Shown piece after piece: positions 3,037 through 6,083 of a stretch of DNA of 6,083 nucleotides (position 1 is the stretch's first letter; each line of letters begins with the position of its first letter). The stretch is from a bacterium (GTDB taxonomy: Bacteria; UBP6; JAFGXH01). The stretch spans positions 1 through 6,083 of the forward strand of contig JAMOQH010000171.1 in assembly GCA_027064085.1 (NCBI GenBank), written 5' to 3'. The notes under the pieces were generated by a model. That model searched no databases. It saw only the letters and a program-made list of their open reading frames with translations, and had not been told where the DNA came from. The translations under genes and the position numbers were made by a program.

Positions 3037-4137
3037 ATGTTTAAAACAAATGAAGGAAGTACTGCAAGATTACTTCAATTATGTATGGGCTATTTCGTTT
3101 TCTATGTGATTACTGGTGTTACTGTTAAATATTTTTTAGTTTATAGTGAGGGACCAAAACTTAATGGTATGCAAAATCTAGCCTATAGTACATTAGGGGG
3201 TACACTTGTTGCTCTCTCTGTTGTTTTATTATTTAGGTGGTATAAATTACAAAGTATTAAAAAAGTAAGCTTTTTAGGAATGATGGTTCCTGTTGAACTT
3301 TTTTATATTATCCCCTCAGGAGTTCTTACTGCAATTGTTATTCCAACAACAACTTTAATGTATTCATTTAAAGGAATTTCAGTAATGGTTGCAATGGTGG
3401 TAATGCGTGGTGCAATTATTATTATTAGTCGTATAATTGATACTATACAAATTAAACAAGGGATTTTAAAGAAAACCGTTTATTTTGAAGAAAATATTGC
3501 CGTTGGATTTGCGATGATTGCTGTTGGGATTAAAATATTTGGTGGTGGTGACCATGGCAAAGCAAGTCCTTTTACATCTCTGCCGGTTATGACTGTTTTT
3601 AGTGCCTATCTTATTGCTTATGCATTTAGAATCTATATTATGAATTATTTTAAAAATACTCGTCCTAAAAATTCAAAAGCAAGTAATAATAAAGCTTTTT
3701 TTGCAATAGAGCAAATTTCTTCAAGTGTAACTATGTTTTTAGTTACTTTAACCATTGTTGTATTGTTTAAATTAGATTTATTAAGTGGGCCTCGTGTTAA
3801 TCCATTTGTAAACGCAATCATTGCTCCAAATACAGGTCAAACTGCTGGATGGTGGTACTGGGCCATTTTTGCAGGAATGGCATTTGGTATAGTCGCATTC
3901 TTTTCTGTGTTTATTTTTATGTTTAAAGGCCGTACAGCTACATTTGCAGGGCTTGTTAATAGATTAACATCCTTAGTTGCAGGAACAACGGCTACTATCA
4001 TTTTTGCTTTAGCATTTGGTGGTAAATTTCCTAAAATAATTGACTGGGTATCTCTTGGTTTTATTTTCATAGCAGTATTTTTTATGACTAGAGCAGAGAA
4101 AAAGCGTGCTAAAGAGATTAAGTCTGAAGAGGCTTAG
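3037..4137 (+). CDS. Multi-spanning inner-membrane protein of unknown function, DMT/EamA-like
   Basis: This is a 366-residue, strongly hydrophobic protein with about ten likely membrane segments, roughly at residues 14-36, 47-67, 78-102, 108-132, 153-168, 180-203, 229-247, 272-296, 302-327 and 335-351. A short basic/acidic cytoplasmic tail (352-366) follows. Loops of note are IPTTTLMYSFKG (102-113), the basic stretch after helix six (206-219), and a small-residue loop at 169-180 with GGGDHGK. There is no cleavable signal peptide. The helix count, length and the Arg within a hydrophobic segment (124) loosely recall drug/metabolite or nucleotide-sugar transporters. I see no family signature that fixes a substrate. 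The gene has its own promoter and appears monocistronic, convergent with the helicase gene 40 bp downstream. The membrane location is well supported; a transport role is inference. Confidence 0.85.
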   Translation: MFKTNEGSTARLLQLCMGYFVFYVITGVTVKYFLVYSEGPKLNGMQNLAYSTLGGTLVALSVVLLFRWYKLQSIKKVSFLGMMVPVELFYIIPSGVLTAIVIPTTTLMYSFKGISVMVAMVVMRGAIIIISRIIDTIQIKQGILKKTVYFEENIAVGFAMIAVGIKIFGGGDHGKASPFTSLPVMTVFSAYLIAYAFRIYIMNYFKNTRPKNSKASNNKAFFAIEQISSSVTMFLVTLTIVVLFKLDLLSGPRVNPFVNAIIAPNTGQTAGWWYWAIFAGMAFGIVAFFSVFIFMFKGRTATFAGLVNRLTSLVAGTTATIIFALAFGGKFPKIIDWVSLGFIFIAVFFMTRAEKKRAKEIKSEEA

Positions 4138-4177: not shown

Positions 4178-5431
4178 CTAAAATCTGTTTTTTTTTGAGT
4201 CTCTTTTTTTATTTCTATTGGCAAAAAACTCTTGCCTTTTTCTATTTTTTTCCTTTTCTGCTTCTTTCTTTTCTAAATTACTCATAGGTTTATCAGTTTG
4301 AGGAAACGGGTTGTCGTTTACTATTTGAATCTTTTGCTTAATCAGTTTTTCAATATCTTTTATATAAACATTTTCTTCTGGTTCACATATTGAAATAGAA
4401 ATACCCTCTTCACCAGCACGCCCACATCGTCCAATTCTATGGACATAAGTTTCAGATTCATTAGGTATATCAAAATTAATAACATATCTAAGCTTATCAA
4501 TATCTATACCACGAGCTGCAATATCCGTGGCTACTAATATTCTAAGTTCACCTGTTTTAAATTTTTTTAGTACTTTTTGGCGTTGATTTTGGCTTTTGTT
4601 GCCATGAATAGCAGCACATTCAATATTTTCCTTTTTAAGATTGCGTACTATACGGTCTGCTCCATGTTTGGTTCTTGAAAAAAGCAATACTTTATCTAAT
4701 TCAGGATTTTTAAGGATATGCAAAAGCAAATTATTTTTACTTTTTCTATTGGTAGTATATAGATATTGCTGTATTGTTTCCGCTGTTGAAGAAACTGGAC
4801 TAACAGCTACCTCCTTTGGATTACTTAAAATTTCTTGTGAAAGCTCTAGAATTTTTTGAGGCATAGTTGCCGAGAAAAATAAGGATTGTCTTTTTTTAGG
4901 TAATTTAGTTATAATCTTTTTAATATCATGAATAAACCCCATGTCAAGCATACGGTCTGCTTCATCTAGAACAAAATATTTGATATCATGTAAAGAGATA
5001 TACCCTTGATTCATTAGGTCAAGTAAGCGTCCAGGGGTAGCTACCAAAACATCGATTCCACTTTTTAGAGTACTCTTTTGAGCTCTCTGACTAACTCCTC
5101 CAAAAATTACTGTATTCTTAATATTTGTATACTTTCCATAAGCGGTAAAGCTTTCTCCAATTTGTATTGCAAGCTCTCTAGTAGGAGTAACTACTAGTGT
5201 TAAAATCTTTCTTTTGCCTTTATTTTTTTGTTGATTATTTATCAAATGCTCAATAATTGGAATAGCAAAAGCGGCTGTTTTTCCTGTTCCTGTTTGTGCA
5301 CTGCCTATAACATCTTCTCTATTTAAAATAAGTGGAATTGCTTTAGCCTGAATAGATGTAGGTTCTTTATAATTTTCATCTTTCAATGCCTTGAGTATAA
5401 GTGGGTTTAATTTAAAGTCTTTGAATTTCAT
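4178..5431 (-). CDS. rhlE: DEAD-box ATP-dependent RNA helicase, RhlE-type
   Basis: This is a 417-residue cytoplasmic RNA helicase that uses ATP to open short RNA duplexes or remodel RNA-protein complexes. The family acts in ribosome assembly, RNA decay and cold adaptation. All core motifs are present in order: Q motif with EPTSIQ (23-28), motif I AQTGTGKT (45-52), Ia PTRELAIQ (83-90), GG (111-112), Ib TPGR (132-135), II DEAD (156-159), III SAT (187-189), IV LLFSRT (249-254), V ATDIAARGID (301-310) and VI HRIGRCGRAG (331-340). Motif VI has Cys where Thr is commonest; the arginines are intact. The C-terminal tail (about 387-417) is rich in Lys/Arg and probably binds RNA. The ATG at 5431-5429 is preceded by AAGGA with a four-base gap. 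The gene appears monocistronic. The exact paralogue name (RhlE rather than another DEAD-box member) is less sure than the family. Confidence 0.93.
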   Translation of the reverse strand: MKFKDFKLNPLILKALKDENYKEPTSIQAKAIPLILNREDVIGSAQTGTGKTAAFAIPIIEHLINNQQKNKGKRKILTLVVTPTRELAIQIGESFTAYGKYTNIKNTVIFGGVSQRAQKSTLKSGIDVLVATPGRLLDLMNQGYISLHDIKYFVLDEADRMLDMGFIHDIKKIITKLPKKRQSLFFSATMPQKILELSQEILSNPKEVAVSPVSSTAETIQQYLYTTNRKSKNNLLLHILKNPELDKVLLFSRTKHGADRIVRNLKKENIECAAIHGNKSQNQRQKVLKKFKTGELRILVATDIAARGIDIDKLRYVINFDIPNESETYVHRIGRCGRAGEEGISISICEPEENVYIKDIEKLIKQKIQIVNDNPFPQTDKPMSNLEKKEAEKEKNRKRQEFFANRNKKRDSKKNRF

Positions 5432-5440
5432 TTTTTCCTT

Positions 5441-5579
5441 TTGTAATAGTTTAATACTATTTTGATTATTATTTGATACATTATTGTACTTTTGTTAATT
5501 GTTTTTGCCTCCAAAACATCTTCATTATACCATATATTTTATTACTTGCAATTATTTTGTTTATTTTTTTCGTTTCAAC
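5441..5579. other. A/T-rich leader region upstream of the helicase gene
   Basis: This must hold the helicase promoter on the minus strand. The best -10-like boxes are TAGTAT (5459-5454) and TACAAT (5488-5483), but neither has a good -35 at 16-18 bases, so I do not call one. No gene or repeat is seen in this part. Confidence 0.4.
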
Positions 5580-5618
5580 CTGCCTTTGAGACAGGGTAAA
5601 CCCTCGTCTTTACGGCAG
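5580..5618 (+). repeat. 39-nt interrupted palindrome (hairpin)
   Basis: The outer arms CTGCC (5580-5584) and GGCAG (5614-5618) enclose a 3x3 internal loop. Inside it GAGAC (5588-5592) pairs with GTCTT (5606-5610) through one G-U, and AGGGT (5593-5597) pairs with ACCCT (5600-5604), with a single bulged C at 5605. It is distinctly richer in G+C than its surroundings and has no T-run. This is the look of a dispersed palindromic repeat, but only one copy is in the window. The G-U pair is compatible with RNA from the plus strand; from the minus strand it would be an A-C mismatch. Confidence 0.5.
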
Positions 5619-5628
5619 TTTTACACGG

Positions 5629-5654
5629 ATAAAAAAGCCCAAGGTCTTTTTTAT
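5629..5654. terminator. A/T-rich hairpin, possible bidirectional terminator
   Basis: ATAAAAAAG (5629-5637) and CTTTTTTAT (5646-5654) are perfect complements around an eight-base loop containing CCC and GG. On either strand the hairpin ends in a run of six T, as in A-tract/T-tract bidirectional terminators. The most likely user is the minus-strand gene at the right edge, whose stop codon is about 170 bases upstream in that direction. The stem has little G+C beyond one G-C pair, so it could be weak. Confidence 0.4.
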
Positions 5655-5685: not shown

Positions 5686-5816
5686 AGATAACGGTGAGTA
5701 TATGGTGCGTGCCGCAGTTCAATGCTACTCACTTTCAGTTTACAACCGGTGTTGGAAAAAGTCCTATCTTTCATATTTACAACTAATTGCGGCATGCGCT
5801 ATATTTTTTGTTGTGT
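5686..5816 (-). repeat. Long-stem structured element, attC-like recombination site candidate
   Basis: On the plus strand, 5700-5719 pairs with 5785-5804 over all 20 positions. Sixteen pairs are Watson-Crick and four are G-T/T-G wobbles. Outside it, AGATAAC (5686-5692) pairs with GTTGTGT (5810-5816) at six of seven positions. The two helices are separated by unpaired bases, 7 on the left and 5 on the right. An AAC box and a GTT box bracketing a long two-part stem is the layout of integron attC sites, where the bottom strand folds. The neighbouring gene is on the minus strand, so the plus strand would be the bottom strand, as required. The boxes fit RYYYAAC/GTTRRRY only partly (GTTGTGT differs at one base; the other box at two). 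The 65-base loop holds smaller hairpins (CAAC/GTTG at 5743-5754) and two copies of TTTACAAC (5739-5746, 5776-5783). It could instead be a structured RNA or another kind of palindromic repeat. Confidence 0.35.
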
Positions 5817-5822
5817 GTAGTG

Positions 5823-6083
5823 TTATTCCATTTCTTTTTTCAGTGCTTCTAACATTTCAAAATTTCTTGAGTTAGGAAGTTTAATTAATGAAGTTAAAAT
5901 GGGAACTTTAAGTTCTTCAGATATTAAAAACCAAACAGGATTTTTAAATAGTTTTGTATAGCCTGGATCATTTTCGGTTTCTCCATTCCATCTCATCACT
6001 AAATGTCTTTCTCCACTTTCCCAAATTCCGTAAGCTATTGAAAAGTAGTTATTGTCATAAACTATGTTTTCAACTTTAAAATT
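5823..6083 (-). CDS. Conserved-looking hypothetical protein (5' part off the right edge)
   Basis: The last 86 codons of a minus-strand gene, ending in TAA at 5825-5823; the start lies outside the window. The visible part looks like a real soluble protein: charged, with aromatic-rich segments YGIWESGE (18-25), VMRWNGE (29-35), GYTKLFKNPVWFL (41-53), and a final helix of EALKKEME type (79-86). No signal peptide, membrane segment or catalytic motif can be seen. I do not recognise a named family and give no function. The gene is followed, in its own direction, by the attC-like element about 7 bases after the stop, then by an A/T hairpin that may terminate it. That placement is what a gene cassette would show, so it may be a mobile accessory gene. 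The coding frame is well supported; the cassette idea is inference. Confidence 0.75.
   Translation of the reverse strand, partial: NFKVENIVYDNNYFSIAYGIWESGERHLVMRWNGETENDPGYTKLFKNPVWFLISEELKVPILTSLIKLPNSRNFEMLEALKKEME

Follow-up and report, generated by a model that had tools for sequence, protein, structure and literature searches.

An attC-like hairpin beside rhlE points to an integron-like gene-capture system with an Xer-type recombinase

Introduction

The stretch of DNA analysed here, referred to as the window (6,083 nucleotides), carries near its right edge a hairpin-forming element next to a small gene of no recognised family. The original prediction read this element as a possible integron attC site, and the question is whether it belongs to a gene-capture system and, if so, which recombinase would act on it. 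In canonical integrons, the recombining strand of attC is chosen through extrahelical bases on the bottom strand (PMC2727003). The integrases of known integrons (IntI) are all said to require an additional domain, the I2 insertion. This insertion had been identified nowhere outside IntI in a study from 2016, and the origin of I2 and of the extrahelical bases was there described as a "chicken-and-egg paradox" (PMC4792948).

Results and discussion

Structure and surroundings of the site

The window comprises all of contig C171 from an incomplete assembly (3.65 Mb, 195 contigs); thus, its right edge is the contig end. The coordinates of its features are given in Table 1. As predicted, the site begins 7 bases past the stop of a partial minus-strand gene (gene end 5823). 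This gene has no match in Pfam, NCBIfam or PADLOC and no relative among the loci compared; weak tblastn matches (37–40%) were found in three Acinetobacter plasmids. Past the site lies rhlE, in agreement with the earlier view that the cassette adjoins core genes. The nearest homologues of rhlE in same-family genomes are ~40% identical, too distant for its neighbourhood to be aligned with theirs, and an empty insertion site was accordingly not seen.

Table 1. Features of the window that bear on the attC-like site
Feature	Position	Strand	Basis or remark
Cassette gene, partial (C-terminal 86 aa, runs off contig)	5823..6083	−	No family match
RhlE-like DEAD-box RNA helicase, core gene past last cassette	4178..5431	−	Chromosomal gene
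attC-like recombination site of gene cassette (candidate)	5686..5816	− (gene orientation)	Covariance model; pPP2 identity
R'' box ACACAAC	5810..5816	−	Sequence; covariance-model alignment
R' box GTTATCT	5686..5692	−	Covariance-model alignment
Inferred crossover in R'	Between G (5692) and TT (5691–5690)		From pPP2 duplicated cassettes
L arm, 5' arm of bottom-strand hairpin	5700..5719	+	G/T wobble bases 5704, 5706, 5709
L arm, 3' arm of bottom-strand hairpin	5785..5804	+	Wobble partners 5800, 5798, 5795
Variable terminal loop, 65 bases	5720..5784	No strand	Sequence between arms

On the plus strand, the site consists of AGATAAC (5686–5692), a 7-base spacer (5693–5699), an arm, the loop, the second arm, a 5-base spacer (5805–5809), and GTTGTGT (5810–5816). 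The AAC and GTT boxes and the spacers of 7 and 5 bases had been described exactly; six of the seven box positions pair as stated, one of them as G·T. The fully paired 20-bp stem of the original prediction stands in so far as all 20 positions pair, but four of them do so only as G·T. The plus strand of the window, on which the arms pair, is the bottom strand of the cassette, which corrects the strand naming; on the top strand, three wobble positions within the inner 16 bp become A·C or C·A mismatches. Minimum free energy folding of the site alone was weak (z −1.63; 13 of 200 shuffles were equally good), and the site was therefore judged by its relatives instead. An Rfam search returned chance matches only, phage sequences gave no match, and among 98 relatives searched at the DNA level no copy turned up outside the site's own genome.

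Two other features of the window were recorded. Between rhlE and the site (5577–5640) are the inverted repeats ACCTGCC...GGCAG and a GGGCTTTTTTA hairpin, with no Rfam match, and positions 3037–4137 encode a membrane-like protein of 366 aa with no match in Pfam or NCBIfam.

Relatives of the site in a plasmid cassette array

A DNA search of plasmids matched one record, Persicobacter psychrovividus pPP2 (NZ_AP025294.1), in six places (69% identity over 93% of the query). From 355 to 403 kb of pPP2, the annotated genes are all on one strand, with attC-like sites between them. RNAalifold of the pPP2 sites gave 13 pairs, 11 of which have changes on both sides. A covariance model, R1, built from 23 aligned pPP2 sites alone with the window left out, matched window positions 5686–5816 with a score of 74.8 bits and an E-value of 4e-18 in 20 kb (the E-values of this model being rough). 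The attC-like reading and the arrangement of a cassette followed by its attC on the same strand are thereby supported, and an attC model match, whose absence had been named as telling against the prediction, was found. The non-canonical boxes and the lack of extrahelical bases, conceded earlier as weak points, are real but are properties of the whole site family.

In an integron, each cassette opens with the outer portion of the R' box that belongs to it. The tail of each R' box should therefore complement the head of the next site's R'' box. In pPP2, this complementarity extended over four of four bases in 50 of the 65 adjacent pairs, compared with 331 of 4225 non-adjacent pairs (~8% by chance). 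Other named genomes followed the same rule in 27 of 33 adjacent pairs, and so did both places of the window's genome that contain two sites, C18 and C188 (GTTGGTG/CACCAAC and GTTAGGT/ACCTAAC). Duplicated pPP2 cassettes are identical over a stretch bounded exactly by TT and CCG; beyond these limits, most pairs diverge within 2–6 nt. This identifies the cassette as the unit and places the crossover at G^TT.

A site that folds 7 bases past a stop codon could also be a transcription terminator or another RNA hairpin 3' of the gene with no role in recombination. We regard this as extremely improbable for the window site: it lacks an Rfam match, such sites are common to unrelated genes and phyla, and the matching of boxes between neighbouring sites would be meaningless for a terminator. 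For the site family, the adjacency rule and the boundaries of the duplicated cassettes refute it. On the strength of the model match and the pPP2 relatives, we take the window hairpin to be a genuine gene-cassette recombination site of an integron-like gene-capture system.

The pPP2 array (355000–404592) also contains eleven near-identical cassettes of ~640 bp in two size groups of six and five copies; they carry the R'' box AGATAAC, are scattered through the array, and mostly have no annotated gene. A longer subclass of sites (~187–197 nt) with an extended loop occurs beside the 130-nt class. In the Flagellimonas marinaquae plasmid NZ_CP092416.1, positions 10812–10959 match parts of the pPP2 array with 91% identity, and the match falls at a gene annotated as a dihydrofolate reductase family protein.

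An Xer-like recombinase associated with the array

At the head of the pPP2 array is a tyrosine recombinase gene that extends across the start of the record. Its homologue in the window's genome, 52% identical and with an open frame, is encoded on contig C159 (771–1604, minus strand). The earlier statement that the window has no integrase is true, and the reason is that the recombinase sits on C159; that contig in turn stops 770 bases beyond the recombinase gene, which accounts for the absence of an attC-like site on it. The best NCBIfam match of the C159 protein was the XerA-type family NF040815 (229.5 bits, over the cut-off of 220). It was also the best match of its genome to the IntI profile, far below the cut-off of 265 (111.7 bits in the genome search; 205 bits over two stretches, which is still under 265).

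The proteins closest to the recombinase by sequence are Xer and archaeal XerA (NF040815; PDB 4a8e, 5hxy), and its predicted structure (pLDDT 86.8) matched an archaeal Xer best (Z 24.2), with IntI4 next (Z 21.2). The alignment to IntI4 breaks at an insertion of ~36 residues in IntI4. Two catalytic motifs are separated by 64–68 residues in nearly all recombinases of the new group (63 in one), by 70–72 in two Xer-type proteins of the window's genome, and by 106 in the two IntI for which a measurement was possible. A quick tree placed IntI in its own fully supported group with the new recombinases outside it, although the branch uniting all of the latter was poorly supported (38%); the nearest recombinases in this tree come from several phyla. 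From profile scores, motif spacing, and predicted structure, we read the array recombinase as Xer-like and devoid of the IntI-specific I2 insertion.

Linkage of sites and recombinase across genomes

We collected 80 recombinase-anchored loci from Cloacimonadota, Fidelibacterota, Thermodesulfobacteriota, Spirochaetota, Bacteroidota, and others. The site model gave 73 matches in these loci, and all 73 are on the strand of the recombinase. Among the 61 matches tabulated, 59 are downstream of the recombinase, the exceptions being in locus L056. In that locus (2055–9101), unlike in the others, four sites that share the strand of the recombinase are located upstream of it.

Sites were present (E 1e-4) in every one of the 36 recombinase-bearing genomes that were tested; eight of these genomes have IntI. 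Sites were found in 106 of 116 Bacteroidia genomes with the recombinase and in 74 of 131 without it (p 3e-10), where "without" means below a strict score threshold and includes these 74 site-bearing genomes. Altogether, 180 of 247 evenly drawn Bacteroidia genomes carry sites, as do 5 of 145 other genomes drawn as relatives of the window's genome. Judged from the distribution of its sites, the integron-like system is common in Bacteroidota. This frequency contrasts with the near-zero number of integrons in published surveys: integrons were nearly absent from Bacteroidetes in the IntegronFinder 2.0 survey, where earlier work had found only integrases without sites and one complete integron, that of Salinibacter, is now known (PMC9024848).

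attI and its stand-alone copies

The 7-mer that must open the first cassette was sought after the stop codon of each recombinase. In 25 of 30 loci it was present no more than 180 bases past the stop, mostly at 60–107 bases, compared with 5 of 826 when 7-mers were swapped in from other loci. In the window's genome, the region 3' of the C159 recombinase recurs on C18, C57, and C188 with 88–98% identity, and these near-identical copies are the basis on which the attI of C159 is assigned. No recombinase coding sequence precedes the copies on these three contigs, each copy stops exactly at the start of the first cassette, and one or two cassettes follow it. Random genomic insertion of the cassettes (attG) was considered and dropped on account of the attI copies at their 5' edges; the first cassette lies at a near copy of attI in three loci, so these appear to be satellite platforms. 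Genome G252 likewise has a stand-alone platform, in which 127 bases are 93% identical to the integrase-side attI and include the last integrase codons.

Read by eye, the region upstream of the C57 and C188 copies has a promoter-like TTGATT-17-TATACT, a candidate for the cassette promoter Pc of canonical integrons, together with a stretch resembling a ribosome-binding site and a short frame (MIKEIYTQLCLHSQ...) that continues through attI. Weaker attI copies were found on two further contigs. The one on C30 (~17545–17625) directly precedes a transporter-like gene, with no site up to the contig end, and that on C133 (~7385–7450) precedes an oxidoreductase gene, after which comes a degenerate site scoring 20.9 bits.

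The attI data also bear on whether the window site might be a normal attC belonging to an IntI-type integron, with the integrase absent from the incomplete assembly. In size, in boxes and spacers, in the cassette rule, and in the G^TT boundary it agrees with attC sites, and some distant genomes of the set carry IntI together with these sites. Nevertheless, the attI-like sequence beside the C159 recombinase is nearly identical to that beside the cassettes, and this recombinase is itself the genome's best, low-scoring match to IntI. Moreover, 28 of the 36 site-bearing genomes have no IntI, the eight IntI loci examined gave no match to the site model, and extrahelical bases are absent. An IntI-type origin of the window site is thus largely refuted already, and we hold it to be very unlikely.

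Strand choice and proposed mechanism

The arms of the hairpins pair without gaps, i.e., extrahelical bases are absent. The stems are asymmetric in another way: two positions five pairs apart are A·C on the top strand in 31 and 32 of 57 anchored sites, respectively, and at four asymmetric positions A·C outnumbers C·A on the top strand by 97 to 3, which corresponds to G·T on the bottom strand. In 97 of 110 sites, folding of the arms was more favourable on the bottom strand.

The cassette units, the position of attI, the G^TT boundary, the covariation of the hairpins, their common strand, and the attI copies can be read directly from the sequences, and the following reaction would fit them. The bottom strand, i.e., the plus strand of the window, would fold into a hairpin and act single-stranded rather than as a double-stranded inverted repeat. 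Conserved G·T wobbles, together with the unpaired spacers, may do the job of extrahelical bases in strand choice and favour the bottom strand. The recombinase would cut R' at G^TT and join the cassette circle to attI. A single integrase may act in trans on several attI platforms, each of which could have its own promoter-like site and leader open reading frame.

We consider it highly probable that an Xer/XerA-type recombinase without I2 captures circular cassettes in this way, that the window site is part of such a system, and that the gene at 5823–6083 with its site is the last mobile cassette before the chromosomal rhlE. The start of this cassette and its attI fall beyond the contig end, and the window probably represents the far end of a further attI platform, next to rhlE. 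A different reading is that the site is a dead remnant, a fossil cassette insertion in a genome whose recombinase has another role, e.g., dimer resolution. The window has a single site, and stems are weakened at C188 (locus L036, 8340–8470), in the second C18 site, and on C133. The window site, by contrast, retains the full stem and the conserved wobbles, the frame of the C159 recombinase is open, and the genome has two further recombinases, both longer Xer-type proteins. The duplicated and reshuffled cassettes of pPP2 argue for activity in that plasmid. A dead remnant is therefore unlikely in our view, if less so than an IntI-type attC.

Relation to known systems

The system resembles canonical integrons (class 1 and sedentary chromosomal integrons, e.g., that of Vibrio cholerae) in having an integrase gene with an adjacent attI and co-oriented one-gene cassettes that each end in an imperfect-palindrome attC of ~130 nt. 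Shared are also the R''/L''/L'/R' layout with unpaired spacers and a variable loop, the G^TT crossover, and a cassette start complementary to the cassette's own R''. It differs in a recombinase without the I2 insertion, a stem with conserved G·T positions in place of extrahelical bases, an integrase co-directional with the cassettes and with attI at its 3' end, and integrase-less attI copies within the same genome. Because two features that define the IntI class, I2 and extrahelical bases, are missing, we treat the system as a variant rather than placing it within that class. Unlike Xer and archaeal XerA (NF040815), the recombinase is genetically tied to attI and cassette arrays. CTXphi and IMEX, which integrate via XerCD, share an Xer-type enzyme and a hairpin site without extrahelical bases (PMC4792948), whereas the present system is equipped with a recombinase, attI, and cassette arrays of its own. 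CALIN and attG insertions likewise place cassettes away from the integrase gene, but here the first cassette lies at a near attI copy in three loci. By definition, a CALIN is a cluster of two or more attC sites that has no integrase in its vicinity (PMC9024848), and the window, with its one site, falls outside this definition.

A search of the open-access literature found no description of this system; preprints and subscription journals lay outside the search, and priority is thus unproven. Whether the sites represent a second, ancient integron lineage, mainly of Bacteroidota, with folded single-stranded sites, an I2-less Xer-type integrase, G·T-marked hairpins, and several attI platforms per genome served in trans is a proposal that we regard as evenly balanced. 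If true, this lineage would either supply the intermediate state so far lacking for the origin of IntI integrons or represent a separate, independent invention of integrons. An I2-less integrase and cassette sites free of extrahelical bases would make the paradox of their origin directly testable, and a large cassette pool, phage defence genes included, may escape present detection tools.

Cassettes elsewhere in the genome

A genome-wide search, which the original prediction had proposed, found five strong sites besides the window's own; with six in the genome, the window site is not single-copy. The other sites follow accessory genes. None of the three outcomes named beforehand as refuting the prediction thus holds or applies. 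On C57, a gene for a 257-aa protein without family match is followed by a gene on the opposite strand. On C18, a gene for a 502-aa protein precedes a TIR and TPR-S pair and then an ABC transporter operon. The cassette with this pair (locus L135, 1986–3793) encodes a TIR protein and a second protein that combines a TPR-S domain with an effector-like region at its N terminus; the two are probably a defence pair. The order on C188 is a nuclease-like gene without family match, a cassette with Thoeris-type ThsA and ThsB between two attC-like sites (locus L036, 8340–9991), a truncated GmrSD-type gene, and purA. The truncated GmrSD-type gene stops at DSQQ before purA.
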